Source: Morinoia aosen
Taxonomy: Eukaryota > Arthropoda > Malacostraca > Amphipoda > Talitridae
Direction: 5' to 3'
Length of the DNA stretch: 64,000 nucleotides
Assembly (NCBI GenBank): GCA_030386875.1
Contig: CM059577.1
Span: 22,207,038 to 22,271,037 of the forward strand
Shown here: one piece after another, positions 8,102 through 58,486 of the stretch
How the letters are laid out: every line of letters begins with the position of its first letter
Numbering within the stretch: position 1 is the stretch's first letter
Position numbers and translations under genes: made by a program
Notes under the pieces: generated by a model
The model's database searches: none
Seen by the model: the letters and a program-made list of their open reading frames with translations, nothing else
What the model was told of the DNA's origin: nothing

Positions 8102-8206
8102 ATGAGCTGCGGGACCCCCTCGTCGGGCCCCAGTAAGGGGTCCATCAAGGGCTTCCTGGACGTTAAAATCCCTGCCAGAAAACGCAAGAGCATCTCCTTA
8201 TTCCGG
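8102..8206 (+). CDS. Gene 1 exon 1: PH domain N-terminus
   Basis: Thirty-five codons from ATG at 8102; an in-frame TGA at 8084-8086 blocks extension upstream unless an unseen acceptor is used. A purine sits at -3 of the ATG. The exon ends TTCCGG|GTGAGG in phase 0 and encodes a Gly/Ser leader, then GFLDVK, the usual first strand of a PH domain. A long G run begins at the donor. Confidence 0.75.
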
Positions 8207-11200
8207 GTGAGGGGGGGGGGGGGGGAGAGGGGGAGGTTGCTATGGGGTCAGCAGGGGAGGGGGGGAGGCAGGGAGGGGAGGCAACTGGGGAGAGGAGGAC
8301 GGATGGGGACAGGGACGATGAGGGAGACTAGGAGGCTTAGGGGAGGATGGAAAAAGAAGCCGGATGAGTTCGGGGAATATTAGAGGCAGAAAAGGCTTGT
8401 GCTGTTGTTTATTCGAGTCGTGCCTTTTGCGCCATTGAACGATGACATTGAATCTTTTGTAATAGTGTAATGTCGTTGTACAGTTCATGAGTTATGTGTC
8501 ATTTAGGGTTATTAATGAAAAACCAAGCTGTTTTACCTATATATGTAAATGATAAGTTATTTCTAACTAATGAGAAATTATTTGGTAATACATGTGTATA
8601 CTAAATCATATTTTACCAACAGATTTAAAGTATAAAATCATCGATTAGGTCAACGTCAGAGTACAATATGAAAATCTGGTCTTGCAGGTGCAAGTGTGGA
8701 AGCGGCGGTGCTGGGTGGTGGTGAGGGGGGACCGCTCCCCCGCAGACTCGTCATCCACGGGGGGCGTGGCGACCCCCACTGCCCCCGCCACCCCCACCCG
8801 ACCCCCCGCAAAGCAGGGCAACGAGGCAACCACATCCTCCAGCTCAGGTGAGGCGGCAGTCGCGAGCTCTGGCGGTGTGTGGGTCTGTGCGTGTCGTGCA
8901 GCGCTGCAGGCATGACTTGTGCGGTGCATGAATTCTCGCAATGCCTTCATGATGGCTTAAATAATCGTAAATCCATTCAAATTCCATGAAAGGCATCATT
9001 TGTTGAAATCTATGCATCGAATGAATTTTTTTCTCTATTTCTTTAAAATTATTTTTAAATAAATGTTAGCACCGGTAATTGTGGGCATATTAAACGATTA
9101 ATTACCTTATTTCCTTTATGATAGACGGTGAAACATATAATTTTTCTCTAGAAGCAGTCACTGTAAGGTTGCTACTCTTCATAACGTAGAGGCAGACATG
9201 AGTCAAATTTTCCCCCGAAGGCGACACAACCCATAACATCGTGCGGCAAAAATGAGTCATGCCTTCAAAGGAAGCAGAAACTCATGAGATTATTGGTCAG
9301 AAATCAGTCATACCTTTGAACTGAGACTACCATACATGACATACGCCAGAAATAAATAAATCATCTCTTCATGACGCAACTACAAAAATTACAGCACGTT
9401 AACTCATCGATGAAGAGCGATTGGGACCCAAAAATTGCGCATCCTTACATTGTGATCATCAATTTCAATCTCCTCAGTAAATTGTTCAATTTTTTGTCGC
9501 GATCGCAGACACAAGACTTACTTTCAGATGGAGGTACTCTTCAGCAACCCCCTTCTTATTCCCTTCAGAAACATATAGCTGTTATATCTATTGGAATCAG
9601 TGCTCACTGAGAAAAATGTGAGGTCTCAAGTTGAGGGCTAGGTAGGCCTTCTTTTTGTTGAACTAGAATAAGTTTTCGTGCTTAGCTACAAACCATCTTT
9701 TTTCGGTCTATTGCTCTCCTGTCTTCAGTACTTACTATTTTCTTCTTCATCATAACCTTTTTCCTTTATGCGCAGTGGATTTTGTGCGGGGACACATTTT
9801 GTGCATAGATTCTGTGTCCCCTTACCTCCATACTAAATGGTACCAACATCTTTCAATGGTAAATGGTCTTTCAACATCTTCGAGGTTGTTAGCTAGGCTG
9901 AAATTAACTTCTAATCTAATCAGAATTCCTGACGCACCTCTCACGTATCTCTGGCGTATCTCCCACGTATCTCTGATACATCTCTCACGTATCTCTGGCG
10001 TATCTCCCACGTATCTCTGATACATCTCTCACGTATCTCTGATACATCTCTCACGGATCTGTGACACATCTCTAGCGCATCTATCATGTATCTCTCACGT
10101 ATCTCTGACACATCTCCAACGTATCCCTGACGTATCTCGCTGAGCTCGCTACAGTAGCCCTCCCCCTCAGGCGGCGCGATCAGCCTCAGCGTGGAGATCT
10201 ACACGCGGCACGAGGGCAGCAACCAGCCCACCGAGGGCACCATCCTGCACATCGACCTCGTGCACAAGATCAGACGCGCCAAGTCCAAGTAAATTTTGGG
10301 TCGCTCCCCCTGTGGGGGTGATGCTGTTTTCATTTTTTTTAGGGAGGGGGGGACGGTAAAGTAGTAGGGAATTTGGTACCGGCAGCTCTGACATTTGTAT
10401 AGATTTACTGGAAACGGTTGTTGACAGTATGTAGACCTGCTAGCGTCAGCTGAAAGAAAACGAGCAACGACTGTAGGATGTACTCGCAGATAGACCAGCT
10501 GACAACTGATGTTAAATAAATATAGCATACTCCCACAACCGCTCTAATATATAGGGGAAATTTCAGAATACATTTGTAAAATATAGGACTCCGATGACAC
10601 ATTCAAAATGGAGGACTTTCTGACAGCAGCTGGGGAATATAGCTCAACTCCCCAGTCTAACTTTTTTGCCACCTGCATGCATTCAGGCGGCGAAAAAGTT
10701 AGACTGGGTCATAGACGATGGTTTTAAAATACAAATGACTCACCAGTATTTTCTATAAAACAAAGGAGTACTTACTACCTTTTATTAAAATTCGGTCATA
10801 GAGGTGTAGCAGGTATCTTACGTCAAGAAAATTGTGTCATGCTCAGTAGACTAAGTTTAAAATTTTGGCTAAGCTTTCTATAATTAATTTCATAGCCAGA
10901 ATGTGGCGTGCCGATACTCAAATCAGAGATGTACTCTGAGTCCCCACAGTGTATCATAGTCCCCACAGTGTATCATTGTCCCCACAGCGTATCATAGTCC
11001 CACTGCGTATCATAGTCCCACAGTGTATCATAGTCCCCACAGTGTATCATGGTCCCCACAGTGTATCATAATTCCCACAGTGTATCATAGTCCCTTCAGC
11101 GTATCATAGTCTCACAGTGTATCATAGTCCCCACAGTGTATCATAGTCCCATGTGTATCATAGTCCCACAGTGTATCATACTCCCCACAGTGTATGGGAG

Positions 11201-14200: not shown

Positions 14201-17200
14201 ACTCAATACAAAACTAATATTAAAAAAACTTGGCGCCTTCTTTATTCATTCTTTAAACCGAATAATAATGCTACGAAAACAATTGAGACCATTGTTCAAA
14301 TTAATGTGAAATGTCACGATAAAAAAGATATTGCAACAGTGTGTAACAACTTTTTTGTAAAGATAGGGAAAAATATAGCTGATAGTATTTCTAGTGAACC
14401 TACTGACCACCTGCAATACATGGACTACGTCCGTGAACACAACTTTTTTTTCGCGCCAACTAATCATCCCGATCTATATGTGTGCATAAAGAACTTAGAA
14501 AATAAATCAAATAGATTAAAGACGTTCTCGGCTAAAGTTCTTAAGGTTATAGCTGATATAATAGCACCATGCTTATCTAATATTAATAACCAGTCACTTT
14601 TCCAGGGTATTTTCCCGAACTCGCTCAAAATTGCCAGAGTGACCCCTATTTTTGAAAATGGTGATGAAACTTGAATGAAAAATCATAGACTTGTCTCTCT
14701 ACTATCAATTATTAACAAAATATTCGAGAAAATTGTGTACAAAAGTATATTCTTATTTTGAACAAATATCTTTTCTCTACGATAAACAAAACGGTTTTCG
14801 TTCTAAAAAATCGATAACACTTTATCGATTTAAAAAAATCGATAACACGGTTTTCATTCTAACAATCGATAAAATTAAATCATTTACAATACCCTTACTC
14901 GAATATAGATGATGAAAAACTTGTTTTTTCTGTGTTTCTTGACTTCCGAAGAGCATTCGATTGCGTGGACAAGAACATTTATTATCGAAACTACACTGCT
15001 ATGGCATGAGAGGAGTTGGACATGATTGGTTCAAATCATGCTGAACAAATCGGAAGCAATATGTTGGCATTGACAAAGTACAATCGGAACTACAGGCAAT
15101 CAGACTTGGAGTACCACAAGGGTTGGTTCTTGGGCCTCTCCTCTTTTTAATCTTTGTCAACGACATAGTTGAATCTACTTCATTTTTCAAATTCATACTT
15201 TTTGCCGACGACAGCACGCTCTCTACGGCTCTCCTAAATGAAAATCCAATTTTAATTGCTAAGAGCTTAATTAAATGATGAGCTACAAAAGGTTTCAATG
15301 TGGCTTAAAACTAATAAAACATTCCTGAATATCGATGAGACAAAATACATTATATTCTCAAACAAGATAAATGTGTCTCATCCACCCATTAAAATTTGTG
15401 ATGGTGAAATTGAAGAAACCAACTCATGTAAGTTCCTGGGCATTATGTTAGATAAACATCTGACATTCAAAGGCCATATCGCACAAATCAGTACTAAATT
15501 ATCAAAATCCGTTGGAATCCCTCATTAAGTAAAAAATATACTGCCTGAAGATGCCTTAAAAATACTTTATCGAACGATCATTTCACCCTATCTACAATGC
15601 GGGATAGAAGCTTGGCACTGAACTGATAAAAATAAAACCAATTTGCACTTTGGGCTGCAAAAAAAACCATAAGAACGGTAAAGAAATTAGAATACAATAC
15701 TCACACAAATAACTCATTCAGAAGTTCAAAAATACTCAAAGCTTTGAATTTCTACAAGCTCTCCGTACTTAATTTCCTGTATAAAACACTGACTGATGAT
15801 GGCAATAGAGAGCTCAAACAATTATCAACTGCACAAACTGGCCATAATGATCATTTAACCCAACATAGAAGTAGCTTCATACTTCCTTATTATTGGAATG
15901 CGATCCCTGCTGAGGTCCGTGGAAAAAGTTTTTACAAAGCTTTCAAAACGAATTTTGAATTTCTCTTCCCATCGATATATTAACCGCATAAGGTAATCAA
16001 GTCGCATTTTTTTCTGATGTATGGTTTACCTTGATAAGGCTATTTGCTATGATTAATGACATAGACCTAAAGTCTGCTACTAATCGTTTTCTTGAATATA
16101 CTGCTCCTATCTAGCCCATATTAATTATTTTCCAAGAACTAGGGATCGAATCACGAAAAAAATAATTTATTGATCAGTCTAGTATGCTCTTAGGTCAAGT
16201 AAGTTATGTTAGTCATAATTGTACAATTTAAAATAGCGTTGGTTATAGGATGCCCTGAAAGTCGCTCAACTTATTCGGGCCCACAAGTATCTAAACTCAA
16301 ATATGTCCATTGTACTAGACTTGAGATACAATCTATTGCTGTATCGCTTGTGGTAAATCAGTTGTTTACCTCCGTCAGGTCGCACCCGTACGCCTTCGAG
16401 GTGTGCGGGAGGCGGGGGGAGGCCCTGCTGTACCTCAGCGGGGGCAGCGAGACGGAGAGCCAGAGGTGGATGGGGGCCATGCGGGAGCTGCTCTGGCCCC
16501 CCCTGCACCTGCCACACATCAATGCAGGTGTGGTGCACGTCACTGCAGGTGTGGTGCGCGTCACTGCAGGTGTGGTGCGCGGTACTGCAGGTGTGGTGCA
16601 CATCACTGGAAGTGTGTGGATGTGGTGCACATCCCCACAATGGCTTTTAAAATTAGAGAAGTCTTGACTGCATGCTCTCCGCAGTAGGTGGCGTCACACC
16701 AGTGCCTCACACTCCACTATTTAGCTCTAAAAATTTCTTTGCATCCATTATTCACCAGATGTCTGCTGAGGATCAGCAGTGGATGACTGTAGCGCAAATT
16801 TGATACAAATTTACAGTATTATTGTCATACAAACGAAAATACTATATTTTTCCACCACTCTCGACTGTGTAAAGACAACAATGTTTTAACTACTAATAAA
16901 ACCATTAAAAAACGAATTACTTAAAAAAAATAGTGAAGAATAGCTGATTGCTTTCCAAAAAAGTTAGACGTAGGCAGTTTTGGCAACGTATAAGCGTTGA
17001 GTGTTCCCCTCTGCTTCGCTAGCCCCTCAGCAACAAAAAGGAAGATAAACAAGTATTTCTAAAAAGATGGTACACAAAACGTAGTTAGTTTTTAAAATGC
17101 CTTAATACAAAAATCCTTAATTGGAATATAATCAGCATGAGTGTCGTAATACCCATGTAAACAGTCGAAACAAATGATTGAGAGAAAGGCATGGTAAAAT

Positions 17201-20200
17201 GCATTCGCTTTGTGGCGAAATTCAGGTTTGATAATGCATGTGAATGCAAGTTGAAAAAATACCAGAGGCGACGCATTGTTCAAAACACTCCTATTAGTGT
17301 GCACTTACTTTGAAATACAAGTCTAGGAAAGATCGATATCAGCAATTAATATCGAAAAAAATAAAGTGGGTTGATTTATAAACTGCTGCGTCTGAGACTG
17401 TGAGGCCGATATTCGGAAACTATCCTTTCGTTCCTACGCTTCAACTAGTAAGCAAAACATAAAATATTTCACCTCAACGCAATGTTAGGATGTTTCCTAA
17501 GCTGATAATGCTGGCTCAAAAGAGTTCACCGCGGATATTCGGCGTTTGGCGTTGGTGATATCAGGAAATAATGTCGACAGTGTTTATAGGTAATTTACAT
17601 TCACAACTGAAGGGTCGGAAGGGCATTTATTCAAAATATCTTTTCGAGCGAACACAATAAAATAGAGAACGAATTCTACTGCCTCGAAGAACACGCTTTA
17701 AATGACACAACAAACTGATTTCTGATATGAGTGCTTCACAATAATATAAGGAAATGACGTGTTAGGTAACGGGAACCGTTGATAATTGTTTAAAAATAGA
17801 ACAAATGTATGTAGCTAGATTGGCAGTTTTGCAATAACTGCTGAGCCTAGGTACACGTACCGAAATGCTATCGTACAAGCAATCACATCGCCTACGTACA
17901 CTGTAAAATTATAGCGTAATGTAGTAATATGTATTGAATTGTAAGGTAACAAGTAAAAGAAATTCGTAACTACTTCTACAGTTTGTACTGCAGCACAAAA
18001 TTATTGTTGAGAGGCAAAATAACGTGCTATTTTGACCTTAAATTATCTCTTTTTTTGAGGTATTTGGATACTCTGTGACAGTTTGTTCCACAGTAGGGCG
18101 CCTGAAATTGACAGAGCCTTCTGCCCAATGTCAGATGAACGATAGTCGACTAGGACATTGTGTCTCCAATTCGGTTTTTGGTTGGTTACAGTTGGAGGAT
18201 GGAATCGTATATCAGCATTACGTTGAGAGAGATATAAAGAGGAAAATACGAGTACGTATTGGGCTTTGATAGTTAGAAACCATTCTTGAATAGGAGTCTA
18301 GGAGAGCAGAGTTTAGTTAGATGAGGGGTTGTGCGATCATTCCTTTAGAATTTTACCTTTGCGCACCACCTTAGCTACAAACTTCATACATTTTTGTTAC
18401 TCTCTTTGAAGATATTGAGGTACATATGTTTCCCATACCAGGCTTCAATAGTCAATACGCGATAACACTAAAGACTGAATCGCTAACCTCCAGCGCACCC
18501 CCACAACCCCCACTTCCCAATAACCTCCTGCCCCATAACCCCTTGCCCGCAGCACACCCGCAGAACTGGCCGGTGAGCGCCATCTCGGTAGGGGAGGAGG
18601 ACGGCGAGTGGGCGGCGCTGGGGGGCCTATACGGCCGCCTGGCTGTGTGTCGGGCCAACCTCGTCATCAAGGACGTGCACAACGGTGGGTGGGCCCGTCC
18701 CTCTGTGGGGCCCGTACTCCCGGTGGGGCCCGTCCATTCACTAGGGCCCGTCCCCTCGGTTGGGCTCGTCCCCTCGCTGGGACCCGTTCCCTCAGTGGGG
18801 CCAATATTCTCAGTGGGGCCATCATTAGTCAGTGGGGCCATCAGTCAGTAGGGCCATCATTAGTCAGTGGGGCCATCACTAGTCAGTGGAGCCATCATTA
18901 GTCAGAGGGGCCATCATTATTCAGTGGGGCCATCATTAGTCAGAGGGGCCATCATTATTCAGTGGGGCCATCATTAGTCAGTGGGGCCATCATTAGTCAG
19001 TGGGGCCATCATTAGTCAGTGGGGCCATCATTAGTGAGTGGGGCCATCATTATTATAGTCAGTGGGGCCATCATTAGTCAGTGGGGCCATCATTAGTGAG
19101 TGGGGCCATCATTAGTGAGTGGGGCCATCATTAGTCAGTGGGGCCATCATTAGTCAGTGGGGCCATCATTAGTCAGTGGGGCCATCATTAGTCAGTGGGG
19201 CCATCATTAGTCAGTGGGGCCAACATTAGTCAGTGGGGCCATCATTAGTCAGTGGGGCCATCATTAGTCAGTGGGGCCATCATTAGTCAGTGGGGCCATC
19301 ATTAGTGAGTGGGGCCATCATTAGTGAGTGGGGCCATCATTAGTCAGTGGGGCCATCATTAGTCAGTGGGGTCATCATTAGTCAGTGGGGCCATCATTAG
19401 TCAGTGGGGCCATCATTAGTCAGTAGGGCCATCATTAGTCAGTGGGGCCATCATTAGTCAGTAGGGCTATCATTAGTCAGTGGGGCCATCATTAGTCAGT
19501 TGGGCCATCAGTAGTCAGTAGGGCTATCATTAGTCAGTAGGGCTATCATTAGTCAGTAGGGCTATCATTAGTCAGTTGGGCCATCATTAGTCAGTTGGGC
19601 CATCATTAGTCAGTTGGGCCATCATTAGTCAGTAGGGCCATCATTAGTTAGTGCAACCATCATCAGTCAGTGGGGCCATTAGAGAGTGGGGCCATCAGTC
19701 AGTGGGGCCATCAGTCAGTGGGGCCATCAGTCAGTGGGGCCATCAGTCAGTGGGGCCATCAGTCAGTGGGGCCATCAGTCAGTGGGGCCATCAGTCAGCG
19801 GGGCCATCAGTGAGTGGGGCCATCAGTCAGTGGGGCAATCAGTCAGCGGGGCCATCAGTCAGTGGGGCCATCAGTCAGTGGGGCCATCAGTGAGTGGGGC
19901 CATCAGTCAGTGGGGCCATCAGTCAGCGGGGCCATCATTCAGCGGGGCCATAAGTGAGTGGGACCATCAGTGAGTGGGGCCATCAGTCAGCGGGGCCATC
20001 AGTCAGTGGGGCCATCAGTCAGTGGGGCCATCAGTGAGTGGGGCCATCAGTCAGTGGGGCCATCAGTCAGCGGGGCCATCAGTCAGCGGGGCCATCAGTG
20101 AGTGGGGCCATCAGTCAGTGGGGCCATCAGTCAGTGGGGCCATCAGTCAGCGGGGCCATCAGTCAGTGGGGCCATCAGTCAGTGGGGCCATCAGTCAGCG

Positions 20201-23200
20201 GGGCCATCAGTCAGTGGGGCCATCAGTCAGTGGGGCCATCAGTCAGTGGGGCCATCAGTCAGCGGGGCCATCAGTGAGTGGGGCCATCAGTGAGTGGGGC
20301 CATCAGTCAGTGGGGCCATCAGTGAGTGGGGCCATCAGTCAGTGGGGCCATCAGTGAGTGGGGCCATCAGTGAGTGGGGCCATCAGTGAGTGGGGCCATC
20401 AGTATGATATCATTTAATTTGAAATACAACTTCTTCTGTTAAAGTTTTAATGTCTTTTCAGTATACGGATTTAGTATAAGATTGAAAACTCTTAAGACTT
20501 CAAGTTATTTAGGTTAAAATTGTGGAGTGTTTCTTTGATATCGCTTTGCTAATTTGAAAGTATAAAGTCGTAAAATATTTATTGATAGGAATAACGATGT
20601 AACATGCCCATTTCAAATGATGCATAATAATCATATTCCTTAAGCCAGAATTATTTTTTATTTGTAAAAATCAATTATTTTTGGATCAGTTGACACGAAT
20701 GCAGCATTAGGTGACACGAATGTAGCATCAGGTGACACGAATGTAGCAGTTGGTGACACGAATGCAGCATTAGGTGACAAGAATGTAGCATCAGGTGACA
20801 CGAATGTAGCATCAGGTGACAAGAATGTAGCATCAGGTGACACGAATGTAGCATCAGGTGACACGAATGCAGCATCAGGTGACACGAATTTAGCATCAGG
20901 TGACAAGAATGTAGCATCAGGTGACACGAATGTAGCATCAGGTGACACGAATGCAGCATTAGGTGACACGAATGTAGCATCAGGTGACACGAATGTAGCA
21001 TCAGGTGACACGAATGTAGCAGTTGGTGACACGAATGCAGCATTAGGTGACAAGAATGTAGCATCAGGTGACACGAATGTAGCATCAGGTGACAAGAATG
21101 TAGCATCAGGTGACACGAATGTAGCATCAGGTGACACGAATGTAGCATCAGGTGACACGAATGTAGCAGTTGGTGACACGAATGCAGCATTAGGTGACAA
21201 GAAGGTAGCATCAGGTGACACGAATGCAGCATTAGGTGACAAGAATGTAGCATCAGGTGACACGAATGTAGCATCAGGTGACACGAATGCAGCATTAGGT
21301 GACAAGAATGTAGCATCAGGTGACACGAATGTAGCAGTAGGTGACACGAATGCAGCATTAGGTGACACGAATGTAGCATCAGGTGACCCGAATGTAGCAT
21401 CAGGTGACACGAATGTAGCATCAGGTGACACGAATGTAGCAGTTGGTGACACGAATGTAACATTAGGTGACACGAATGTAGCATCAGGTGACACGAATGT
21501 AGCATCAGGTGACACGAATGTAGCAGTTGGTGACACGAATGCAGCATTAGGTGACACGAATGTAGCATCAGGTGACAAGAATGTAGCATTAGGTGACACG
21601 AATGTAGCATCAGATGACACGAATGTAGCATCAGTTGACACGAATGTAGCATCAGGTGACAAGAATGTAGCATTAGGTGACACGAATGTAGCATCAGATG
21701 ACACGAATGTAGCATCAGTTGACACGAATGTAGCATCAGGTGACAGGAATGTAGCATCAGGTGACACGAATGTAGCATCAGGTGGCACGAATGTAGCATC
21801 AGTTGACACGAATGTAGCATCAGGTGACACGAATGTAGCATCAGGTGACACGGATGTAGGTGACACGAATGTAGCATCGGGTGACACGAATGTAGCATCA
21901 GGTGACAGGAATGTAGCATCAGGTGACACGAATGTAGCATCAGGTGACAGGAATGTAGCATCAGGTGACACGAATGTAGCATCAGGTGGCACGAATGTAC
22001 CATCAGTTGACACGTATGTAGCATTAGGTGACACGAATGTAGCATCAGGTGACACGAATGTAGCATCAGGTGACACGTATGTAACATCAGGTGACACGGA
22101 TGTAGCATCAGTTGACATGAATGTTGCATCATTTGACACAGTGTAGCATCAGGTGGTACAGTGTGGCATCAGGTTACACGAATGTAGCATCAGTTGACAC
22201 GAATGTAGCATCAGGTGACACGTATGTAGCATCAGGTGACATGGATGTAGCATCAGGTGACACGAATGTAGCATCAGGCGACACAGTGTAGCATCAGGTG
22301 GCACAGTGTAGCATCAGCGACACAGTGTAGCATCAGGTGGCACAGTGTAGCATCAGGTGGCACAGTGTAGCATCAGGTGACACAGTGTAGCATCAGGTGA
22401 CACGAATGTAGCATTAGGAAACAAGTATGTATCATCAGGTGACATGGATGTAGCATCAGGTGACACGAATGTAGCATCAGGTGACTCGAATGTAGCCTCA
22501 GGTGACACGAATGTAGCATCAGGTGACACGAATGTAGCATCAGGTGGCACGAATGTAGCATCAGGTGACACGAATGTAGCATTAGGTGACACGAATGAAG
22601 CATCAGGTGACACGAATGTAGCATCAGGTGACACGTATGTAGCAGCAGGTGACACGGATGTAGCATCAGTTGATATGAATGTAGCATCAGGTGACACATT
22701 GTAGCATCAGGTGACACAGTGTAGCATCAGATGACACGAATGTAGCATCAGGTGACACGAATTTAGCATCAGGTAACACGGATGTAACATTAGGTGATAC
22801 GAATATAGCATCAGGTGACACGAATGTAGCATTAGGTGACACGAATGTAGCATCAGGTTACACGAATGTAGCATCAGATGACACGGATGTAGCATTAGGT
22901 GACACGAATGTAGCATTAGGTGACACGAATGTAGCATCAGGTGACACGAATGTAGCATCAGGTGACACGGATGTAGCATCAGGTGACACGAATGTAGCAT
23001 CAGGTGGCACGAATGTAGAATCAGGTGACACGGATGTAGCATCAGTTGACACGGATGAAGCATTAGGTGACACGAATGTAGCATCAGGTGACACGAATGT
23101 AGCATCAGGTGACACGAATGTAGAATCAGGTGACACGAATGTAGCATCAGGCGACACAGTGTAGCATCAGGTGACACAGTGTAGCATTCAGGTGACACAG

Positions 23201-26200
23201 TGTAGCATCAGGCGACACAGTGTAGCATCACGCGGCACAGTGTAGCATCAGGTGACACAGCGTAGCATGAGATGACACAGTGTAGCATCAGGTGACACAA
23301 TGTAGCATCAGGTGACACAGTGTAACATCAGGTGACACAGTGTAGCATCAGGTGACACATTGTAGCATCAGGTGACACAGTTTAGCATCAGGTGTCACAG
23401 TGTAGCATCAGGTGACACAGTGTAGCATCAGGTGACACAGTGTAGCATCAGGAGACACAGTGTAGCATCAGGTGACACAGTGTAGCATCAGGTGACACAG
23501 TGTAGCATCAGGTGACACAGTGTAGCATGAGATGACACAGTGTAGCATAAGGTGACACAGTGTAGCATCATTAGACACAGTGTAGCATCAGGTGACACAG
23601 TGTAGCATCAGGAGACACAGTGTAGCATCAGGTGACACAGTGTAGCATCAGGTGACACAGTGTAGCATCAGGTGACACAGTGTAGCATCAGGTGACACAG
23701 TGTAGCATCAGGAGACACAGTGTAGCATCAGGTGACACAGTGTAACATCAGGTGACACAGTGTAGCATCAGGTGACACAGTGTAGCATGAGATGACACAG
23801 TGTAGAATCAGGTGACGCAGTGTAGCATCAGGCGACACAGTGTAGCACCAGGTGTAGCACCAGGTGCAGCACCAGATGCAACGTCAGGTGCAGCACCAGA
23901 TGCAACACCAGGTCACACGTGCACCACACGTGCAGGAGCCACACGTGCAGAATGGCCTCTCACGTGCATCCAGCGCGTGTACGTGTCGGGCGGCGGCGAG
24001 CTGGAGGACGAGGGCAAGATCTTCATCGTGCAGACGCGACCGTGAGGGGGGGTCGTGAGGGGCGAGTGGCGGTCGTTGAGGCCGAGTGGTAGTCATGAAG
24101 GGCGAGTGGCAGTCGTGAGTGGCGAGTGGCGGTTGTGAGTGGCGAGTGGCGGTCGTAAGTGGCGAGTAGCGGTCGTGAGTGGCGAGTGACGGTCGTGAGT
24201 GGGTGGCGAGTGGTGGCTGTTGGTGAGAGTAGCGGGTGGTGTTGGTGAGGGTAGCGGGTGGTGTTGGTGAGTGTAGCGGGTTGTGTTGGTGAGAGTAGCG
24301 GGTGGTGTTGGTGAGTGCAGCGGGTTGTGTTGGTGAGAGTAGCTGTAGCGGGTGGTGTTGGTGAGTGTAGCGGTTTGTGTTGGTGAGAGTAGCTGGTGGT
24401 GTTGGTGAGTGTAGCGGGTTGTGTTGGTGAGAGTAGCGGGTGGTGTTGGTGAGTGTAACGGGTGGTGTTTGTGAGTGTAGCGGGTTGTGTTGGTGAGAGT
24501 AGCGGGTGGTGTTGGTTAGGGTAACGGGTGGTGTTGGTGATGATAACGGGTGGTGTTGGTGAGAGTAGAGGGTGGTGTTGGTGATGATAACGGGTGATGT
24601 TGGTGAGTGTAGCGGGTTTTGTTGGTGAGAGTGGCGGGTGGTGTTGGCTAGGGTAACGGGTGGTGTTGGTGATGATAACGGGTGGTGTTGGTTAGGGTAA
24701 CGGGTGGTGTTGGTGATGATAACGGGTGGTGTTGGTGAGTGTAGCGGGTTGTGTTGGTGAGAGTAGCGGGTGGTGTTGATGAGTGTAGCGGGTTGTGTTG
24801 GTGAGAGTAGCGGGTGGTGTTGGTGAGTGTATAGCGGGTTGTGTTGGTGAGAGTAGCGGGTTGTGTTGGTGAGAGTAGCGGGTGGTGTTGGTGAGTGTAG
24901 CGAGTGGTGTTGGTGAGTGCACTATAATTCACTCAATGAGCTCAGGCAATCACCAATTTCATCAGTACGTAATCATTCACGCCAACAGCTAATTCGAATA
25001 TCAAACTATGATGTATTCGTTGATCAGAAAAAAATATGCTTCAGATGAGAAAAAATGTTAGCTACAGTACATATTGCATCAGACTGGAAAGGTTTAATGT
25101 TATTCGAAATTTTCCCTTTTATTTTAGCTATCATTTATTTGACTCCGATCCGTAAACTTTACTTTTCTACTCACCGATACTCTAGTCTTCCCTCTTTAAA
25201 AAGACCTAAGATATGGCGCGCACAGTAAGGAGACACGAAGGCCCGTACTGAGGGTTAGGCAGGCCTTATTTTTGTTGAAATGGAACATGATTTTTGTTTT
25301 GCAGCATACCATCTTTTTCCAGTTCACTGCTGATTTTTCTTCTATGCCGATTACTTTCTTCTTCAACTTTTATTTTGTTCCATAAGCTTTTACTAATCTA
25401 ATTGCTGCTCTAAGCAGTGTGCGGAGGCGGAGACTCACTTCGTGCGTAGATTCCTCGTTTCCAGTATTTTGTACAAAATGGTGCCTTCTGCCTTCTTCCT
25501 TCCCATCCGAGAACACCGTTGTTGTGGTTACGGAAGATTTTACTAACTGATATTCTCATCTTATCTTTTCCCTTTCATTTCAACATGCATTAATCAAATT
25601 GTACTTACAGAGCCCACCCGTGCGGCGAGACGTACCTTTATTTCTACTCGAACGAGCTGGGCCCGTTGCTGGACGGTCTGCACGACGCGGTGTCGGGACT
25701 GCTGGCGAAGGGCAACGGCGGCGACGACACGTCGGTGATAAGCGACCTATCCGAGCTGTCGGGAGCGATAGGGTCGGTTGTGGTCCTACCGCAGCGGCTC
25801 CCCGAGCTCGGCACCGTCAACAAAGTGAGGAAGTCCACCTCAGTGCTCAACTTATCCGAGGTCTCTTCTCATAAAATTAGCTCCGACTTGCTGATGGTGC
25901 CCAGCTCCAAGTCTCTCGGCACCTCCCCTCAGCATAAGATGCTGAGCCACTGCCGCAGAAAGTCCATGAGTGAAACGAATCTAGCGAGAATTTGTTTGGA
26001 TGAAACTGACGAGGAGCTTGATGCGAGAGACGATGATTTAGATGACATAAGACCGGCAGATCAACCCAAAGACAGAACGTCTTCTTCGGGTTCTTACAAC
26101 TCCTACAGGTCTACTGACTCGGGGGTCAGACTTTCTGCATCGCCTTCGAATTATGACCAGGCGACCATGAGGAGACTAGTCACAAAATCAGACTCCATTG

Positions 26201-28542: not shown

Positions 28543-28725
28543 TCAATTTTTGCTTGCTATTTCTGGTCTCGGCTTGTGTTTGTGAGAGGCAGTCACAACC
28601 TGTGCATGCAGGGCTAGGAGTACGAATTTTTTTTTCATTGGTGTTAAAGGTGTGCGTTTGAATAATTAGTCAGTGCAATATGAGTAGTAGTAGTGGTCAA
28701 AATTAGGAAGCACGCAACGCTCTAT

Positions 28726-31340: not shown

Positions 31341-31344
31341 ACCA

Positions 31345-41535: not shown

Positions 41536-41539
41536 TCGA

Positions 41540-45996: not shown

Positions 45997-45999
45997 TTA

Positions 46000-49408: not shown

Positions 49409-49995
49409 AACTTCAATAAAAAGTTAAGGGCAAATACCAAAGAAGTTCACACTGTTAAAATTGTGTGTTTCAAGCATTGACCCATCATCAACTTATGTAG
49501 ATGTTATGTTATGATTGGAAGAGTGTGATGTTAGCATTTCCGATTGTGATTTCTGAATTTTGGGGTCTATTCGTAATGTAACGAAGCTGAGAATTCTTGA
49601 ATCTCTTTTTAGGCTTATGGACAAGCCCAATCTTAATGATATGCAGAGTGCGCTTTCTTTGCTTTTGCTCGGGCAGCTGTAGCTTTGGGGAACGCTGTGC
49701 TAAATACTTTCTAACTACGTCCCATTATGCATTTCATTCATTTTCTCGCTCACTTGTGTTCATGTTATAGGTCTTTGGCGGTCTCTATCTGATTACCGTT
49801 GTCTTAACATTTCTAGTTTACATATAATGTGTGCAATTGCCTAGTCATAGTATTTAATTCTGTGTAAATGTTTGGAGATTTACAGCTGATGATGGGTCAA
49901 TGCCCGAAACGTTCATCTTGGAATTGACCACATACAATTTTACCAATGTGGACTTCTTTGATTTTTGCCCTTGACTTTTTATTAATGTTTTTCAA
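49409..49995. mobile_element. Penelope-related non-autonomous element with inverted ends
   Basis: About 85 bp at 49,409-49,495 is the inverse of 49,880-49,995. Shared stretches include AATAAAAAGT, AAGGGCAAA, CAAAGAAGT, TAAAATTGT and GCATTGACCCATCATC, with a gap of about 20 bp in the left copy. Each end carries a hammerhead-like core. The ~385-bp interior has no coding potential I can see. The relation to Penelope is inferred from shared CTGA-GATG...CGAAACGTTCAT text with the element at 62-63 kb. Confidence 0.55.
49890..49926 (+). ncRNA. Hammerhead-like ribozyme core
   Basis: CTGATGA, a GGG/CCC stem closed by a TCAATG-like loop, then GAAACG gives the full conserved hammerhead core. A diverged version (C3 changed to T) lies in reverse complement at about 49,465-49,497. 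Flanking stems were not resolved by eye. Confidence 0.5.
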
Positions 49996-51062
49996 ATAAT
50001 TTATCCTCGAATACTAATAAATTCATCAGATAAAGAGCTAATTTAAATAAAAATCTACAGACCTGCAAATAACGTTAAATTTACCGTGAATTAGAGGGTA
50101 AATCGTACATAGATGAATGAGGTATCTTCAAAAGTACAACAAACCCCGAAAAATTTGTGGCGTTCAGTAAATTGTAGAAATTTAACAATATACCAATCCA
50201 CGAATCTGCACTGTGACTTTATATGTATTAGACGTGCATCTAATGTAATATGATAGTACACGTAAATTGGATACCTAGCACACTAACACACTAGTGCCAG
50301 GTTCGATAACTCTCACTCAAATACCCAAGCTCAAGCTAAAAGAACCCGAATAGTTTAAATGCAAGGTGAAAAAAATTGAATTCGTTGACATGGAGGGCCT
50401 GCGAAATAATAAGAAAATATTTACTACAATTTAAACATGACAAAAGTGGATGTTGGAGCTACAAATTTAGATTTGACTCATAAAGTCTAAGTATAATTCG
50501 AGAAGGAGAAACTTCGAATACGAAGAAATTGAAATAGGTCCAATGATTTCCTCTGTCACCAGATTATGGCGAACTGCTCGGTGATACATGTCGCGGTGGG
50601 TTTGAGATAAGAGGGTTTAGTTACATGTTGGTCATATTCGGTGACAAATCTGTCATGTTTTGAAAAATGTGCATCGTTTTAAACATGTTTTTTTCTCGTT
50701 TCACATGTTTACCATGCTCTACGGGTGTGTCGCATAAATTTAAATGCTTCTCATAATTGATTTACTTCACAATTCAGCCGACGTGCTCGACATAATTACC
50801 GTGTCTGATCACATGTTCCGTACATTATATGAAATGGTTGAGGATATGTTAAGTTCATTTAAACGTTTGCCCATCAAATTGAAGACCAATTTGAATTCGA
50901 ATGGGAAATTTTGAGCCTTTAAATTTTAAATAAAATGTCCAGCCTATTTGTCCCCACTTTAAATTTAGACTACAAAGACTTGAAGTCCAACTTCTCCAAA
51001 TAATTTCAAGTTCACGAGCTAGTTCTCGAAATAGAACACGTAACTCTGATCCCAAATAAAAT
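49996..51062. other. Intergenic stretch beyond gene 2 3' end
   Basis: AT-rich. No feature recognised except the poly(A) hexamer at its right edge. Confidence 0.4.
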
Positions 51063-51068
51063 TTTATT
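51063..51068 (-). promoter_or_regulatory. Candidate poly(A) signal of gene 2
   Basis: AATAAA on the minus strand lies only 8 nt past the TGA stop, which would give a very short 3' UTR. Confidence 0.35.
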
Positions 51069-51076
51069 TTCTAAAT

Positions 51077-52605
51077 TCAGAAAAAATTTCCTCTTCTCCC
51101 CGCTGGGGGAGAGGTGTTCTCCCTAGCGTTGGGTGGGGGAGAGGAGGGCGGAGGAGGGGGCTGGGGAAGGAACCTTGGGGGGAGGGGAGGGGGATTGGGT
51201 GCACCCCGAGGTTCAGACGAGGGGTTGGTGGGGAGGGTTGGGGTCGTGTAGATGGCGTTGGAATCCCCGTCGGCTGAGAAGGTCGCGGGTGTTGAGTATT
51301 CGGGGAAATCTCCTGAATTTTCCTCCGCAGCTTGTTCCCTGGTGGCAGACGAGTATTTTGGAGGAGGGAAGTTGGACGAGTACGATGAAACACTCGTGGA
51401 CTGGGGAATGAAATTAGACTGAGAGGAGAAATTCCCGCAGAAGCTTTGGGGATTGTAGGACGGGGATGAAAAACTAGAGGGAGGCTTGATGAAGTACAGC
51501 CCCACGGTTGGGGAATCGTTACTGCTGAGGGTTGAGGAGTCGGTGCTTTTAGTGCTCATGGTGCTGCTGCTGTGCCTGTTGTTGCTACTGTTGCTGTTGT
51601 TGCTATGCCTGTTGTTGCTGCTGTTAGTGTTCCTGTTAACCGCGCTGCGGCTGCTACTTTTGCCAATAGTATGAGGCGCATGATAGTGACTGCGATTGTT
51701 GCTGATGTTGCTGGTGGCATCTTTGAAGGTGTCGATGATATCGTCACTGCTCTTATTGTACTTGCTGGTGAAGGGAGTGATGGTGTTGGTGGCGTTGTTG
51801 TAAGCCACAATGCTGTTGATACTCTTGCTGTTATTGATGAGGGTGTTGCTGCGAGCGTTGTGGCTGATATTGATGGTACTGGTCCTGCCACCAAAGTTGT
51901 TGTTGTTGATGACTCTGTTGATTGGGTTGCTGGCACTGCTGCTGTTGTTGTTGATGTTGCTGACACTCCTGCAGCCGACAATAATATTGCCGGTGTTGCT
52001 GCAGATGTTGCTGCTGCTGCGACTGTTAAATGTTTTGTTTGATGACCGCCCGTTGGCAACACTCTCTTCCCCAGCCTTCGGCCTCTGGTCCCCTTCCACA
52101 CTGCCTCCCCCGTTGAGTTTCAGTTCCCCCCACGATCGGGACGGCACGAGGGGGAGCCGGGGGTCATCCCCCATCAGCACGACCCCAGAGTGTCCCCCAG
52201 ACCCCAAGGTTTCCTCCCCATTCAGCCCCAGAGTGTAGGAAGTCGACATGCCCGGAGGCCCAAACGAACCTCCTTCCCCACCCTGAGAGGATGAGTTGTT
52301 CAGCCCCGATTTCTCAACCAAGAACCCCAAGTCAATGGTGTTGCTGTTGGGCTTCCTGAACATCCTTGGGGAGGTGTTCTTCCTCCTCTTCTTCCCCAGC
52401 CAAACAGCCCCGGCGACGAGCACGAGGCCTGTCACCCCCACCACAAACCCCACGATGATCCCTACGTATATGTGGTGTGCGGGGGTGGGGGGGACCCGCG
52501 CCACCGTGGGCGGGGGGACGATGGACTCCGTCCCATCCTCGGGGTGGCGGTGGCTGGCGGGGTCCAGCGGCTCTCTGAAGTCGTCCAGGGAGCACAGGCA
52601 GGGCT
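51077..52605 (-). CDS. Gene 2 terminal exon: TM helix and cytoplasmic tail
   Basis: Minus-strand acceptor GCATTTCAG|AGCCC at 52,605; open for 509 codons including the TGA at 51,077-51,079. It encodes EPCLCSLDDF, a Pro stalk, a 25-residue hydrophobic helix starting HIYVGIIVGF, and basic residues. A long tail follows with an Asn/Ser/His repeat (SSNNRHS units near 51,555-51,640) and a polyproline C-terminus. The GTTGCT-like trinucleotide look of the plus strand is the shadow of the Asn/Ser codons. Confidence 0.8.
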
Positions 52606-55600
52606 CTGAAATGCGGCTTCTATTTAGACATGGCAGTGATAGCGTTCGAACAATACACACTTCTCGAGGAAGTTTTAAGTGGCAGAGAAATTTTGAAGCG
52701 TGAAGAAATTTTGAAGATTGAAGAAAGTTTGGAAACGAGAAATATTTTAGAACTAGGTGAAATTTTGAAAATAGAAAATATTTTTAAAACAGAAGATATT
52801 TTGCAAGTTGGAGAAACTTAAAACGAAGCAATTTTGAAACTTTGAAATTTTGGCGCTTGAAGAAATTTTAAAATTTGAAGAAATTTGAGAACCTTTTTTT
52901 AAAGTGGTTATCGTTGCTACTGTTGATGCTGCGCAAGAAATCATTAACTTTTACGTTAATTTTTCATACATATTTTGAAATTTGATGAAATTTTAAAACT
53001 TTAATGAAATTTAAAATTTAAGATATAGATTCTTTAAAATTTGTAAATTTCAAGAAAAAATTAAATTTCGCACAAAATTGTACATTTTCATAATTTTTTT
53101 AAGCATGCTGAAACTTTACTGATCGTAAAACTTTACAATGATGAACGATTGCAACTTTGGTTGAACCTCGATCTATACATCTTATGCGGACTTTAACTCG
53201 TACGGATAAAAATTAATTGTTTTTATTTTATAATTACGATACCCGAGTCGAGTTATTACTGTTAGACATTTCCATTACTGGTGGTTACTGGGACATTTCC
53301 ATAACTGGTAGTAACTGGGATATTTCCATTGCTGGTAGTAACTGGGACATTTCCATTACTGGTAGTAACTGGGACATTTCCATTAGTACATGTAGAGGAT
53401 AGGCTGAGATAATCTCGTTATACGTTGCCCTATAACGAGGACGAGTATGACCCGATTTTTTCGAATATAACTCGAAGAAAATCAAAGCTTTTACCTAGTA
53501 AAACTCGGAAAACACTTGAGATCAATTGATTAGTGATTTTTTAGCCCGTAACTTTCATCTCTTCAAAATTCATAGCTAGCAATGCAATCCATCGAACTAG
53601 AAAGACTATTTATAACACCTATTGTTCCCGTTCTTCATTATTTATCCATCACTAGATGAACAGCTTCAGGCGAATGTACTGCGAAGCTACAGGGAATCGA
53701 ACCCAGAACTTGCACGTCCAAAGTGTAATTCTCTGCTCTTTCGTCAAGGAGAAAGCAAATGTAAACGAATGCATTTTAGAAGTTGCGGTGCCTAAGTTTG
53801 CTTATTTATTGATTGTTCATTTCAAGGTTGCAGCGATTGCACTCCGACACCAAAGCATCAGGGGATACTGCAATAATTTCATGAAAACATAAGGAGTATT
53901 TTGGCCCCAACTCGATTCTGTGTCTGGTATTATATGAGAGTTTTATTACCTCTTCTAATAAGAAATTGTTATCCTTTAGTTCCGTGAGTCCGGGCAGACT
54001 CCTGAGGGTACCGCCAAGCATGTAAAAATCTAGTTCATGCGTGGCAAAAAAATTTGAATGACTAGGAATTAGATAATGTATTCCCGTTAAAAAGAAATGA
54101 CTGTATGCAGTAATTTTTCAACTCTGTTAACTCTAAAGGGAACAGTAGTGACAAACCAAAAAACAAGTTCACGTGATGTTTGTTCTTGACGACTTCGATT
54201 AAAGGAGAAAAAATATATTTCTCACAGCACTAAGTAGGCCTCCCACTTGACTTTTGTGCTGTACTTTGTTTGTGTTTCACGTAAATAATTATATTAAAAT
54301 GACTTCCAAAGCCAAATTACCAAGTCCCTGTCAGAATACGGCCGGTGTTGTGTTTGGTTCTGGCGCCTTCTGCTCTCGTGCGTTGTCTCATGCGCCTTAA
54401 AGCGGACTTTGTTGATGTGTTTCGCATGGCTGCTTAAAACTTACCTTTTTAGACACTAATGAATGACGTATTTTTAAATAAAAACTATGAATGAAAGTAC
54501 AATTGTGCATTAAAAACCTCGCGCAGAGTTTTTTGTTTCTGAGGATGATTATCATAACAAAAAATAAAAATTGACGAAAATGCATCATTGACTGAGATAG
54601 GGATTCCGTTTCACGGAATTTTTACTCGCTCGTCTAAAGTTCTTTCACATTTACACTGCAGTTCCTTCGCACTACAAGCGGGGGCTGTCTAAAGTGCACA
54701 GAAGTCATTAACTTCTGCGTGAATTTCAAAGAATGCAAAAAAAGAGCAAATTTAAAATTCCTTGTTCAGGAAAAAAAGACACGCTCGACTTTTCAAACAG
54801 ACTACCTAAGAAAATTGAATCTTTGAGGGAAATCTTTAAAGAAATACTCCGAGATATTTCACTTTGTGAATAAATACGTCGCAAAGATTAAAAGAAATGT
54901 TCGGTAATGCTTGAAAAAGAATGCATGCTGCCTTAGCTCCCAATAAAATAATACATCTCTGGAGTGAGCGTGAACAAAGTTAGGTAAGTTACTTTCCCTT
55001 CAATTTGCTTCGGAGTAGCACTTTTCTGCCGCATAAGTATAGCACTGCCCTCAGTGAAATGAAAGGAAATGAAAAGAAATGAAAGGAAATGAAATTAAAT
55101 CTCGCTGCTCTCGATGGAAATCGAAGGAAATTAGGAAGTTTCCTTCCGGGACGTGAAATAACTACATTGAATACAAATTATTTGTTCTAGGAAGGATGTA
55201 CAACTAAAATGAAAATTGCAGTTATAAAATTAAATCTTCCACACTTTAAAAATTTTCCTCTCGTATAATAGAGTCTCCGGGAAAAAACTAAAAGTTCCCT
55301 CAAAGATGGCTTCGAAACTTTCTTCAAATTGAAAACTTTCAATTGTTCAATAGAGTTTCAGGCATCGCAAGGCAACTAAATCTGTGAATTGTTAAAAAAT
55401 ACGAGGGGCTGGGAGAGAGGAGAGCTGGGGACGAGGCAGGAGGGGCAGGAGGGGCAGGAGAGGCAAGACAGGCAGAAGGGGCAGAAGGGGCAGGAGGGGC
55501 AGGAGGGGCAGGAGGGACAAGACAGGTAGAAGGGGCAGGAGGGGCAGGAGGGGCAGGAGGGGCGGAAGGGGCAGGAGGAGCAGGAGGGACAAGAGAGAGC

Positions 55601-58486
55601 AGGAGGGGCAGGAGGGGCAGGAGGGGCAGGAAGGGCAGGAAGGGCAGGAAGGGCAGGAAGGGCAGGAGGGGCAGGAGGAGCAGGAGGGGCAGGAGGGGCA
55701 GGCGGGACAAGAGAGAGCAGGAGGGGCAGGAAGGGCAGGAGGGGCAGCACCTACCAGACGAGAAGTACACCTCGTGCACACACGACACGGCCGGCGCAGC
55801 GAGGGCCAGCGTGATCCACAACATGGAGGCAGGCCGCCCGTTCAGGCTGGCGGTGAGGTTGTGCGGCTGTGGGGCAAGGGAAGTCAGGTCCGGGAAATGA
55901 TGCTCGCTTTACTACGGCTGGGAAATGCATAACCTAGGAAATGCTTGACCTGGGAAATGCCTGACATCTTGTGAACATTTTGGGCTGCAAACGATTTGTT
56001 TCGGTAATATTGAATGAATGCTGCTCATCACGCAAAATCAAAGGTATTTTAGCATTGGTCTCCTATTCATAAATAAGCCTGTGCAAGTCAAAACAATAAA
56101 AAATACCATAATCCTTGGCGACAGAAAAAGAATAAATATAATTTTTTTTTGTGCATCATTCGGGCTTGCACCTTTTTGTATAGGTTGTTCTCTATCTTAT
56201 TTTACTTTAAAAAATGAATTCAGTCAGACCACCTCAAAGATTGCGTCAATACCGCGTCAAATGCTTCAAGTTAAGTTTGATCTCATACATTTCCCAAAAT
56301 TTAAACAAAACATCGTGTGTTCAAAGGGATTTTAAGAAGCGTATCGTTGTGGGGAGCTAGTGCACATAATTTAGTAGCCCCAGAGAAAGACAAAGACATT
56401 GTAGGAAGGAACAGGTAGAGTTGTTGCGTTGTATTTACATCAGCCAAGCTGAACGGGGAAAATTTTGACAATTGTATTCTCATTGCTGACAAAAAAAAAC
56501 AATAAATTACAATGGATTTGGTTTTGAAGCATAAGTTTAGCTCCACATAATTTAAAAAACACATGTTTTAACAGGTCATATTTTATATAATACTGTGTTT
56601 AATATCAGTATGCATTGGCTTCATCTGCATATAAGATACTTAAATGTCAGGAGTAAACTCCGTAGAGTTTGATTTATTTCCTATAACACTAACGTCAGGC
56701 CTGCATCAACCAGATTGTAAGGTTATGATAAGGGAAAAAGATTAGTTATACCTACAATTTCATTGAAGGTTTAGAATATACGCACCCTACGTTAACGAAA
56801 GTGTCCTTGGTTGAGTAAGTTTGTGGCTACAAGCGTAACTGGCAGCGGAAATACTGGATTTTTTGCTCTTCGATGGAGTGCCAAAGGTACTGCAATTGCT
56901 GCAGACAATCTCGCATTGCACTGTAATCACATCTAGTGTGTTCGATGAATGCAGACCTCATTGCTACTGGAGGAACTGATCGCGCATGTTATTTGAGGTG
57001 GCGCGGTGTGAAAAATTCTGATGTTTATGCTCGCATTTCAATAATTTGCGGCGCAGGCTTGAAACAAACGACGCAACTTCGCTCGTTGATCATGCGGTCC
57101 CGACCGGGGCAAGTTTTCTGTGCACAGCCACGGAGTATAGGGAATGGACTGCCCGAGTCTCGAGCCAGTGAACACCTCGAGCTAGTGCAAGTACACCAGC
57201 ACCACACCAGCACAACACACCAGCACCACACTAGCACCACTCCAGCACCACACAAGCACCACACACCAGCACCACACCAGCACCACACCAGCACCACACC
57301 AGCACCACAACAGTACCACACCAGCACCACACCAGCACCACACCAGCACCACACCAGCACTACACCAGCACCACACCAGCACCACACCAGCACCACACCA
57401 GCACCACACCAGCACCACACCAGCACCACACACCAGCACCACACACCAGCACCACAACAGCACCACACCAGCACCACACACCAGCACCACACCAGCACCA
57501 CACCAACACCACACCAGCACCACACCAGCACTAAACACCAGCACCACACCAGCACAACACACCAGCACCACACTAGCACCACACCAGCACCACACACCAG
57601 CACCACACCAGCACCACACCAGCACAACACACCAGCACCACAACAGCACCACACCAGCACCACACCAGCACCACACCAGCACCACACCAGCACCACACCA
57701 GCACCACACCAGCACCACACCAGCACCACACCAGCACCACACACCAGCACCACACACCAGCACCATACACCAGCACCACACACCAGCACCACACACCAGC
57801 ACCACACACCAGCACCACACACCAGCACCACACCAGCACCACACACCAGCACCACACACCAGCACCACACACCAGCACCACCCCAGCACCACTCCAGCAC
57901 CAAACCAGCACCACACCAGCACCACACCAGCACCACTCCAGCACCAAACCAGCACCACACCAGCACCACACACCAGCACCGCACCAGCACCACTCCAGCA
58001 CCACACCAGCACCACACACCAGCACCGCACCAGCACCACTCCAGCACCAAACCAGCACCACACCAGCACCACACCAGCACCACACCAACACCACACCAGC
58101 ACCACACCAGCACCACACCAGCACCACACCAGCACCACACCAGCACCACACAAGCACCACACCAGCACCACACCAACACCACACCAACACCACACAAGCA
58201 CCACACCAGCACCACACACCAGCACCACACCAGCACCACTCCAGCACCAAACCAGCACCACACCAGCACCACACCAGCACCACACCAGCACCACACCAGC
58301 ACCACACCAGCACCACACCAGCACCACACCAGCACCACACCAGCACCACACCAGCACTACACCAACACCACACCAGCACCACACCAGCACTACCTGCAGG
58401 CCGTACGGCAGGCTGGCGGAGACGCTTACGTCGTGGCGCGTGTACGCGTTGGAGCCAAAACTGACGGTCACGTTGAGGGTGGGGGG
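51077..58486 (-). CDS. Single-pass membrane protein, last three exons (partial gene)
   Basis: On the minus strand, exons 58486-58394, 55866-55755 and 52605-51077 join with GT-AG introns in matching phases (0, then 1). The product begins mid-protein with an extracellular segment carrying two N-glycosylation sequons (NVT, NLT) and Cys residues. It then has a Pro-rich stalk, a transmembrane helix (52,397-52,474) followed by a basic GKKRRK stop-transfer, and a cytoplasmic tail of about 420 residues rich in Asn, Ser and Pro. Type I topology is inferred from the positive-inside residues. The tail holds PPPKY (a PPxY WW ligand, 51,352-51,366) and a PPPLPPR SH3-type ligand near 51,170-51,192. The extracellular piece resembles the end of an Ig/FN3-type adhesion receptor but is too short to assign. 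The family is not recognised. 5' exons are missing. Confidence 0.7.
52660..53100. repeat. Degenerate purine/AT repeat before gene 2 exon C
   Basis: Repeated GAAATTTTGAA, GAAGAAATTTT and AAAATTTGAAG segments at irregular spacing. It is a worn array lying just upstream, in gene sense, of the exon C acceptor (52,606). Confidence 0.6.
53272..53397. repeat. 27-bp minisatellite
   Basis: About four and a half units of GGGACATTTCCATTACTGGT plus AGTAACT in the last intron of gene 2. Open as a nine-residue ISITGSNWD repeat, not coding. Confidence 0.92.
53690..53770 (-). mobile_element. tRNA-related SINE fragment
   Basis: A perfect B box, GGGTTCGATTCC, is on the minus strand (53,693-53,704), preceded by GGACGTGCAAGTTCT. 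The A box is weak. It lies in the last intron of gene 2, in the sense orientation of that gene. Confidence 0.4.
53900..55385. other. Gene 2 last intron, unique part
   Basis: AT-rich. A short GAAAGGAAAT run near 55,060-55,100; otherwise nothing recognised. Confidence 0.4.
55400..55754. repeat. 9-bp minisatellite at gene 2 exon B donor
   Basis: About 38 units of GGGGCAGGA on the plus strand. On the transcribed sense it is a C/T-rich CTGCCCCTC tract starting a few bases inside the intron. Confidence 0.95.
55755..55866 (-). CDS. Gene 2 exon B: extracellular segment
   Basis: Minus-strand acceptor TTGCCCCACAG|CCGCAC and donor TCGTCTG|GTAGGT, 37 codons plus one base. It encodes PHNLTASLNGRPASMLW and then SCVHEVYFSS. 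The leftover G joins AG of exon C to make Glu, giving SSEPCLC. The start resembles an FN3 A strand; inference only. Confidence 0.68.
55870..57185. other. Gene 2 intron, unique part
   Basis: AT-rich, no repeat or exon recognised. Confidence 0.4.
57188..58393. repeat. 11-bp minisatellite at gene 2 exon A donor
   Basis: Roughly 100 units of ACCAGCACCAC with 13-bp ACACCAGCACCAC variants. It runs up to the donor base of exon A. Long open frames on both strands (up to 527 codons) are artefacts of the repeat. Confidence 0.96.
58394..58486 (-). CDS. Gene 2 exon A: extracellular segment
   Basis: On the minus strand, acceptor CTCCCACAG|CCCCCC and donor CTGCAG|GTAGTG bound 31 codons, phase 0 at both ends. 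It encodes PPTLNVTVSFGSNAY and ends SLPYGLQ. It is the only non-repetitive GC-rich island between two long arrays, which supports selection on it. Confidence 0.65.

Follow-up and report, generated by a model that had tools for sequence, protein, structure and literature searches.

Tandem arrays begin within 10 nt of six of the eight donors of two genes in the stretch of DNA analysed here, the 64,000-nucleotide window C22:22207038-22271037 of a 1.99-Gb, 29-contig assembly that is judged by its gene structure to belong to an animal. Exons are almost free of arrays and, in exons sampled elsewhere in the assembly, copies spanning the exon-intron border were found at donors and at none of the acceptors. 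An earlier note on this DNA had described minisatellites anchored at splice junctions; that observation is confirmed and extends past the window in a modest sample, and is not yet a rule; the interpretation offered there is supported in part. The donor/acceptor polarity of the copies goes beyond the note, which had not predicted it. The explanation we favour, and hold to be moderately probable, is frequent tandem duplication filtered by the polarity of splicing: exons exclude the duplications, donors tolerate them and acceptors do not.

Arrays at the splice junctions of the window

Exon edges were re-derived from open frames, GT/AG signals and phase continuity, and arrays were called with Tandem Repeats Finder (TRF) at a score threshold of 50. 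Gene 1, on the forward strand, comprises seven exons whose phases match to give a single protein, and is present once in the assembly in a search with its first 403 residues. Gene 2, on the reverse strand, consists of exons B, A and C. TRF arrays make up 28% of the window and 46% of the introns of the two genes.

The clearest donor array belongs to gene 1 exon 4 (16379..16527). This 21-nt array (16515..16616) begins 13 nt inside the exon, its first unit consisting of the exon end and donor (CAATGCAG followed across the junction by GTGTGGTG), and later units repeat CAG/GTGTGG, the slash marking the junction, every 21 nt. After exon 5 (18553..18684), arrays of 16-19-nt units start 6 nt from the donor (18691..20403; TRF score 1761). 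Exon 6 (23951..24041) has arrays on both flanks; those of 20- and 22-nt units on its donor side start after 9 nt (24051..24919; score 942), with GTGAGT in their consensus units. In gene 2, a 9-nt array starts 7 nt after the donor of exon A (array 55435..55747, score 412; exon 55755..55866) and an 11-nt array 3 nt after that of exon B (array 57193..58390, score 1790; exon 58394..58486). The sixth case is a G-rich tract (8205..8278) at 0 nt from the donor of gene 1 exon 1, the ATG-bearing exon (8102..8206) identified by its open frame, its donor CGG/gtgagg and an own-genome match. With a period of 8, 62% matches and a score of 50, equal to the threshold, this tract is the exception among arrays that TRF otherwise resolves into head-to-tail copies of a 9-100-nt unit, as in minisatellites. 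TRF found no nearby array in the window at the donors of exon 2 (8688..8847), which also lacks one at its acceptor, or exon 3 (10171..10288).

On the acceptor side, arrays end at a distance. A 22-nt minisatellite (9929..10138; score 266) stops 32 nt before the acceptor of exon 3, and a 21-nt array with a 12/24-nt tail (20685..23913; score 4539) stops 37 nt before that of exon 6. Weak arrays lie 51 nt upstream of gene 2 exon A (16-nt unit, 55918..55965; score 68) and 80 nt upstream of exon C (18-nt unit, 52686..52731; score 71), whose acceptor-side edge at 52605 is defined by TTTCAG/AG. An array thus ends within 50 nt of two of the nine acceptors and within 80 nt of four. At exons 2, 4, 5, 7 and B, no array comes within 100 nt of the acceptor (the nearest to B is at 158 nt). 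These positions bear out what the earlier note had claimed: arrays at or near the donors of exons 4, 5, 6, A and B, a G-rich tract from the exon 1 donor, arrays ending 25-90 nt from the acceptors of exons 3 and 6, and arrays upstream of exons A and C. Its statement that the arrays differ in sequence also holds, save for the pair 58645-62036 and 63127-63647, which is one array split by an insertion.

Arrays also lie deep in introns (10939-11195, 12568-13076, 53265-53385 and others), and their placement was compared with a null in which each array was collapsed to a point on the array-free intron backbone and the points were placed at random. Six of the 18 intronic arrays come within 10 nt of a donor, a count that none of 100,000 placements attained (null mean 0.17), and eight come within 50 nt of any junction, which 3 of 100,000 attained (null mean 1.67). 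With TRF scores of at least 200 only, the donor count is three of 12 arrays, reached in 7 of 30,000 placements, which is weaker and still holds. Because the window was chosen for this very look, these figures are no independent test.

Array positions and coverage around sampled exons

The independent sample consisted of exon matches to the kinase profile PF00069 in the assembly, 57 of 135 being fetched with 600 nt per side. They were picked by eye as partial matches with no internal stop and an open frame of at most 200 aa, and near-duplicates were dropped where noticed; one near-duplicate pair (L033/L078) slipped in and some exons come from one gene. Donors and acceptors were placed from the profile-match end and the splice consensus, with untrained splice-site weights; 11 exons had no donor and six no acceptor above the score cut, leaving 46 donors and 51 acceptors. 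In addition, eight of 79 myosin matches were fetched, and 210 kb of contig C1, taken as 21 pieces of 10 kb (one from its start, the other 20 evenly spaced), served as background. ABC transporter matches (PF00005) proved unusable as an exon source: all 19 scored matches lie on C27 (55-73 Mb) in full-length open frames of bacterial look, pointing to a symbiont, a contaminant or scaffolded debris. Kinase matches are often paired at equal or near-equal scores, 0.3-4 Mb apart on one contig (for instance C15:68.92/69.77 Mb, C17:70.00/72.13 Mb and C4:94.83/95.73 Mb), which suggests segmental duplications or uncollapsed haplotypes. A large number of short myosin exon matches are embedded in open frames of 400-1743 aa (for instance C9:53913532-53918718, C17:37591424 and C8:61635563); their introns may thus lack stops, possibly owing to open arrays on the flanks of the exons.

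The first array lies within 50 nt of 10 of the 46 kinase donors, compared with eight that start in the 350 nt at risk beyond that distance (p 2.6e-4); at acceptors, the corresponding counts are five of 51 and four (p 0.004). Among C1 points with an array-free left side, 138 of 5,003 have an array in the same 50-nt bin, which puts donors about 8-fold (p 4e-7) and acceptors about 3.5-fold (p 0.013) above background. The donor excess persists when the two weakest cases are removed (8/46, p 3e-5), and pooling kinase and myosin exons gives 10/54 donors (p 2e-6) and 5/59 acceptors (p 0.023). A stricter baseline of 6.5%, the donor-side rate at 50-400 nt taken over a 90-nt window that allows for spanning units, is exceeded at donors (from p 0.0006 for 10/46 to p 0.023 for 8/54) and is not exceeded at acceptors (p 0.24-0.34). 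The five acceptor-side arrays end 17, 19, 19, 25 and 38 nt from the exon.

Exons in this work are predictions from sequence, and GT repeats inside arrays might have been mistaken for donors, creating the association by miscalling. This is highly improbable, since the profile match ends no more than 12 nt from each of the 10 kinase donors that have a nearby array, and gene 1 stays in phase across its seven exons.

Array coverage is 0.01 inside 41 exons and runs at 0.15, 0.19, 0.19, 0.21, 0.18, 0.18, 0.19 and 0.17 in the successive 50-nt bins after donors, so that arrays abut the exon edge squarely on that side. Beyond 450 nt it drops to 0.08-0.09 (0.08 at 500-550 nt), and in the 400 nt leading up to acceptors it ranges from 0.05 to 0.10; arrays account for 13% of the C1 sample. 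Compared unpaired, the difference between donors and acceptors is at the edge of significance (95% confidence interval -0.0003 to 0.208). The earlier proposal that selection spares only exons is supported by the step from about 1% to 15% at the donor. A pure boundary effect, in which placement is unbiased, only exons are protected and arrays creep until they meet one, with nothing special about the junction, would account for coverage that stays level as far as the donor and almost vanishes in exons, and for acceptor arrays that end near the branch-point region. We regard it as rather unlikely, since arrays placed uniformly outside exons would have far fewer edges close to junctions, and donor-spanning copies contain exon bases, with none of their kind found at the sampled acceptors.

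The surplus of starts within 50 nt of donors, above even the local intron rate, and the fall in coverage beyond 450 nt would also be expected if donors were true hotspots of array birth, where the transcribed 5' end of the intron raises the duplication rate through a G/T-rich sense strand, R-loops or G-quadruplexes, or collisions. In line with this, the 10 near-donor kinase arrays have a mean sense-strand G/T content of 0.71, with eight of 10 above 0.5, and the non-array bases after donors are G/T-rich too (0.62), compared with 0.46 in the five acceptor-side arrays and 0.56 in 23 other arrays. The arrays at L035, L043, L045, L046, L057, L061, L071 and L076 range from 0.61 to 0.96, exceeding most acceptor-side arrays, and five of the six window donor arrays have positive sense G-C skew. 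Yet those at L066, L078 and gene 2 exon A are not G/T-rich, G/T-rich units are equally expected from mere copying of local 5' intron sequence, near-donor coverage is close to the genome-sample mean of 0.13, and a copy anchored on a conserved exon remains recognisable for longer than one at a random point. G/T-richness is compatible with arrays derived from local 5' intron sequence and would also allow a strand-linked hotspot, which we consider possible and somewhat doubtful as the explanation of the pattern. Extra seeding at donors, beyond tolerance, is likely but unproven.

Copies that span the donor

An ungapped 16-mer test compared recurrence of the junction downstream with control positions. 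At exon 4 of gene 1, 15 of the 16 junction bases recur 21 nt downstream, as happens at 0.04% of controls. An intermediate test with a shorter segment placed seven of 59 donors (window included) and two of 60 acceptors above all swapped partners; at scores of at least 13, the counts were seven and zero. In the main test, the segment from -60 to +25 was aligned with gaps to the next 420 nt, the alignment being required to cross the junction, and acceptors were treated as mirror images. Its thresholds were not preset; the counts outside the window are constant from 13 to 20, and raising the threshold to 20 reduces the window donor count from two to one. The 51 donors outside the window include five myosin donors picked by eye, and the acceptors are those of the kinase exons only.

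A donor-spanning copy lies downstream at nine of these 51 donors (L057, L066, L035, L071, L034, L037, L030, L058 and L076), whereas no acceptor-spanning copy lies upstream at any of the 51 acceptors outside the window (Fisher p 0.003) or the nine within it. Swapped pairs give such copies in 0.7-1.2% of cases and random C1 points in 130-151 of 3,000 (4-5%). In the window, two of the eight donors carry one: exon 4 (score 32, segment -13..+25) and, marginally, gene 2 exon A. The copies can be long: at L066, a 74-nt segment of which 50 nt are exonic is repeated at a 62-nt shift, at least 85 nt are repeated at L057, 41 nt at L035 and 30 nt at L037, and the array at L071 repeats ATCAGG/gttagt. Most copies are spaced by 21 to about 150 nt. 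The intron at L057 also contains what seems to be the decayed product of an exon duplication, namely another copy of the kinase exon that carries an in-frame stop. The earlier suggestion that duplication starts at exon-intron edges gains support from these copies, and from the excess of starts near donors over both random points and the local intron rate.

Under the favoured explanation, small tandem duplications would arise often across the genome and expand into minisatellites, and purifying selection would keep them out of exons, so that array edges gather at exon borders. The direction of splicing would then decide what survives at each border. A donor-spanning duplication would put a copy of the exon end and its GT into the intron, and would be tolerated because the original donor, still the first, can be used and the mRNA can stay unchanged; the copies could then grow into an intronic array whose start lies at the final bases of the exon or within them. 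Duplication across the acceptor would add sequence to the mRNA or disturb the branch point and pyrimidine tract, so that acceptor-side arrays would stop about 17-80 nt short.

Several results weigh against this explanation. All eight myosin exons are free of arrays for 50 nt beyond both ends of the match, and none of the five myosin donors tested has a spanning copy. Array proximity does not differ significantly between donors and acceptors (10/46 and 5/51; Fisher p 0.16), nor does coverage when compared in pairs (p 0.21). The other window donors score 8-11 of 16 in the 16-mer test, within the control range, so that only exon 4 clearly repeats exon bases; a start at the junction itself is observed for this one window array and is presumed for the others. 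The excess over random points may arise in part because a conserved exon keeps old donor-spanning copies recognisable longer. Furthermore, three elements of it are inferences: that splicing uses the first donor, that the copies are neutral, and that they expand once born. The comparison of array-to-splice-site distances with controls that the earlier note had suggested, run here on a small sample, did not refute the association, the lack of arrays close to the myosin exons notwithstanding.

Copies of the donor might also be kept because they are useful, with successive donor-like sites or U1 targets at the start of the intron strengthening or regulating splicing. GTGAGT in the exon 6 units and CAG/GTGTGG in those of exon 4 are compatible with such a function, as is the GT retained in four of the six highest-scoring copies outside the window (L035, L037, L066 and L071; lost in L034 and L057) and at exon 4. 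A selected role is nonetheless very unlikely, since 36 of the 46 sampled kinase donors have no array within 50 nt, units differ between arrays, and conservation of CAGGT is, overall, no higher than that of the remaining unit positions. Intronic repeats elsewhere have been tied to splicing, reportedly including the ABCA7 variable number tandem repeat and the LHX3 intron repeat. In Caenorhabditis elegans, the CeRep25B minisatellite is enriched beside multiply spliced exons, a further point in favour of function (PMC4039745). The arrays described here resemble these cases as tandem arrays in introns near exons; those are single families or loci, whereas here many unrelated arrays lie at donors of unrelated genes.

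Arrays could instead mark intron birth, through tandem duplication of AGGT-containing exon segments. CAGGT occurs in nine of the 22 distinct window units (null mean 0.6-0.8), a count that no 5-mer reached in 5,000 shuffles; the arrays are those at 12568-13076, 16515, 20685, 23840 (which adjoins and resembles 20685), 31504, 35203, 35626, 40891 and 58645. The mechanism is known from the Hellsten ATP2A1 work, from 24-bp repeats in fission yeast and from potato RdRp, as described in two publications (PMC4974935; PMC3443670). As in those cases, a short tandem duplication can carry a donor and the mRNA may stay intact. Here, by contrast, an existing exon end and donor are duplicated and would grow intronward into a minisatellite, with no sign of a new intron or acceptor: the copies sit in predicted introns that continue past them, and no acceptor-spanning copies were found at the sampled and window acceptors. 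Moreover, CAGGT is only mildly raised outside the window, where it occurs in seven of 59 C1-sample units against a null of 2.5 (p 0.013) and ranks 87th among all 5-mers, and intron birth is a most improbable source of the pattern. As a common seed of the arrays, CAGGT was likewise set aside as mostly local, since its signal is weak outside the window and it is not, overall, more conserved than its surroundings in the unit.

Neighbouring features, known systems and meaning

Gene 1 ends in exon 7 (25611..28545), identified by its open frame and an own-genome search, with a tail carrying YxxM motifs and a stop. The sole Pfam match of the gene is a PH domain below the cut-off (E 0.0077); from YxxM and PTB patterns we take it to be a putative PH/PTB adaptor of the IRS/Dok-like type. 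Gene 2 exon C (51080..52605, with a provisional 3' end) encodes a membrane-spanning segment and a tail, and a comparison of gene 2 with Pfam gave only matches below threshold. A PDB search yielded nothing relevant, and Rfam and tRNA scans of the window gave no match. Intron 3 of gene 1 contains decayed reverse-transcriptase-like open reading frames (13754-15983) that resemble a long interspersed nuclear element by eye. The 31-nt array at 58645-63647 is split by an insert of about 1.1 kb (62037-63126) with an open reading frame at 62086-62931; the insert is flanked on either side by AGCATAGAGAAC, probably a 12-nt target duplication, and by eye its two ends carry a common inverted repeat. It has no Pfam match and, by its motifs, is presumably Penelope-like.

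Two further systems bear comparison. Tandem alternative donors of the GYNGYN type are adjacent repeated donors a few nt apart; the donor copies described here are likewise adjacent, yet they arise from segment duplication and are mostly spaced much more widely. Introner elements are dispersed copies of one sequence tied to splice sites. The present repeats share the tie to splice sites, yet their units differ by eye, except for the window pair at 58645 and 63127 and the related L033 and L078. In Daphnia pulex, tandem repeats are overall densest in introns and units longer than 8 bp are rarer there than elsewhere, whereas long units are not rarer in the introns examined here; the terms "splice" and "exon-intron" are absent from the main text of that study (PMC3152781). 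A literature search returned no report of donor-anchored minisatellites genome-wide, an absence that is unproven given that subscription literature lay mostly outside its reach.

As a tentative generalization, more open to doubt than the explanation favoured above, donors may seed minisatellites throughout the genome that grow into the intron while acceptors never do, the polarity of splicing thereby shaping the repeat landscape and leaving rows of spare donors. If this held on a full annotation, it would provide a simple rule for repeat growth in genes: at donors yes, in exons no, at acceptors no. Such arrays would be a source of rows of alternative donors, would link repeat expansion to intron lengthening and intron gain, and would offer a natural system in which to watch donor competition. 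If arrays are indeed seeded by the copying of donors, splicing would help to set where repeats grow.

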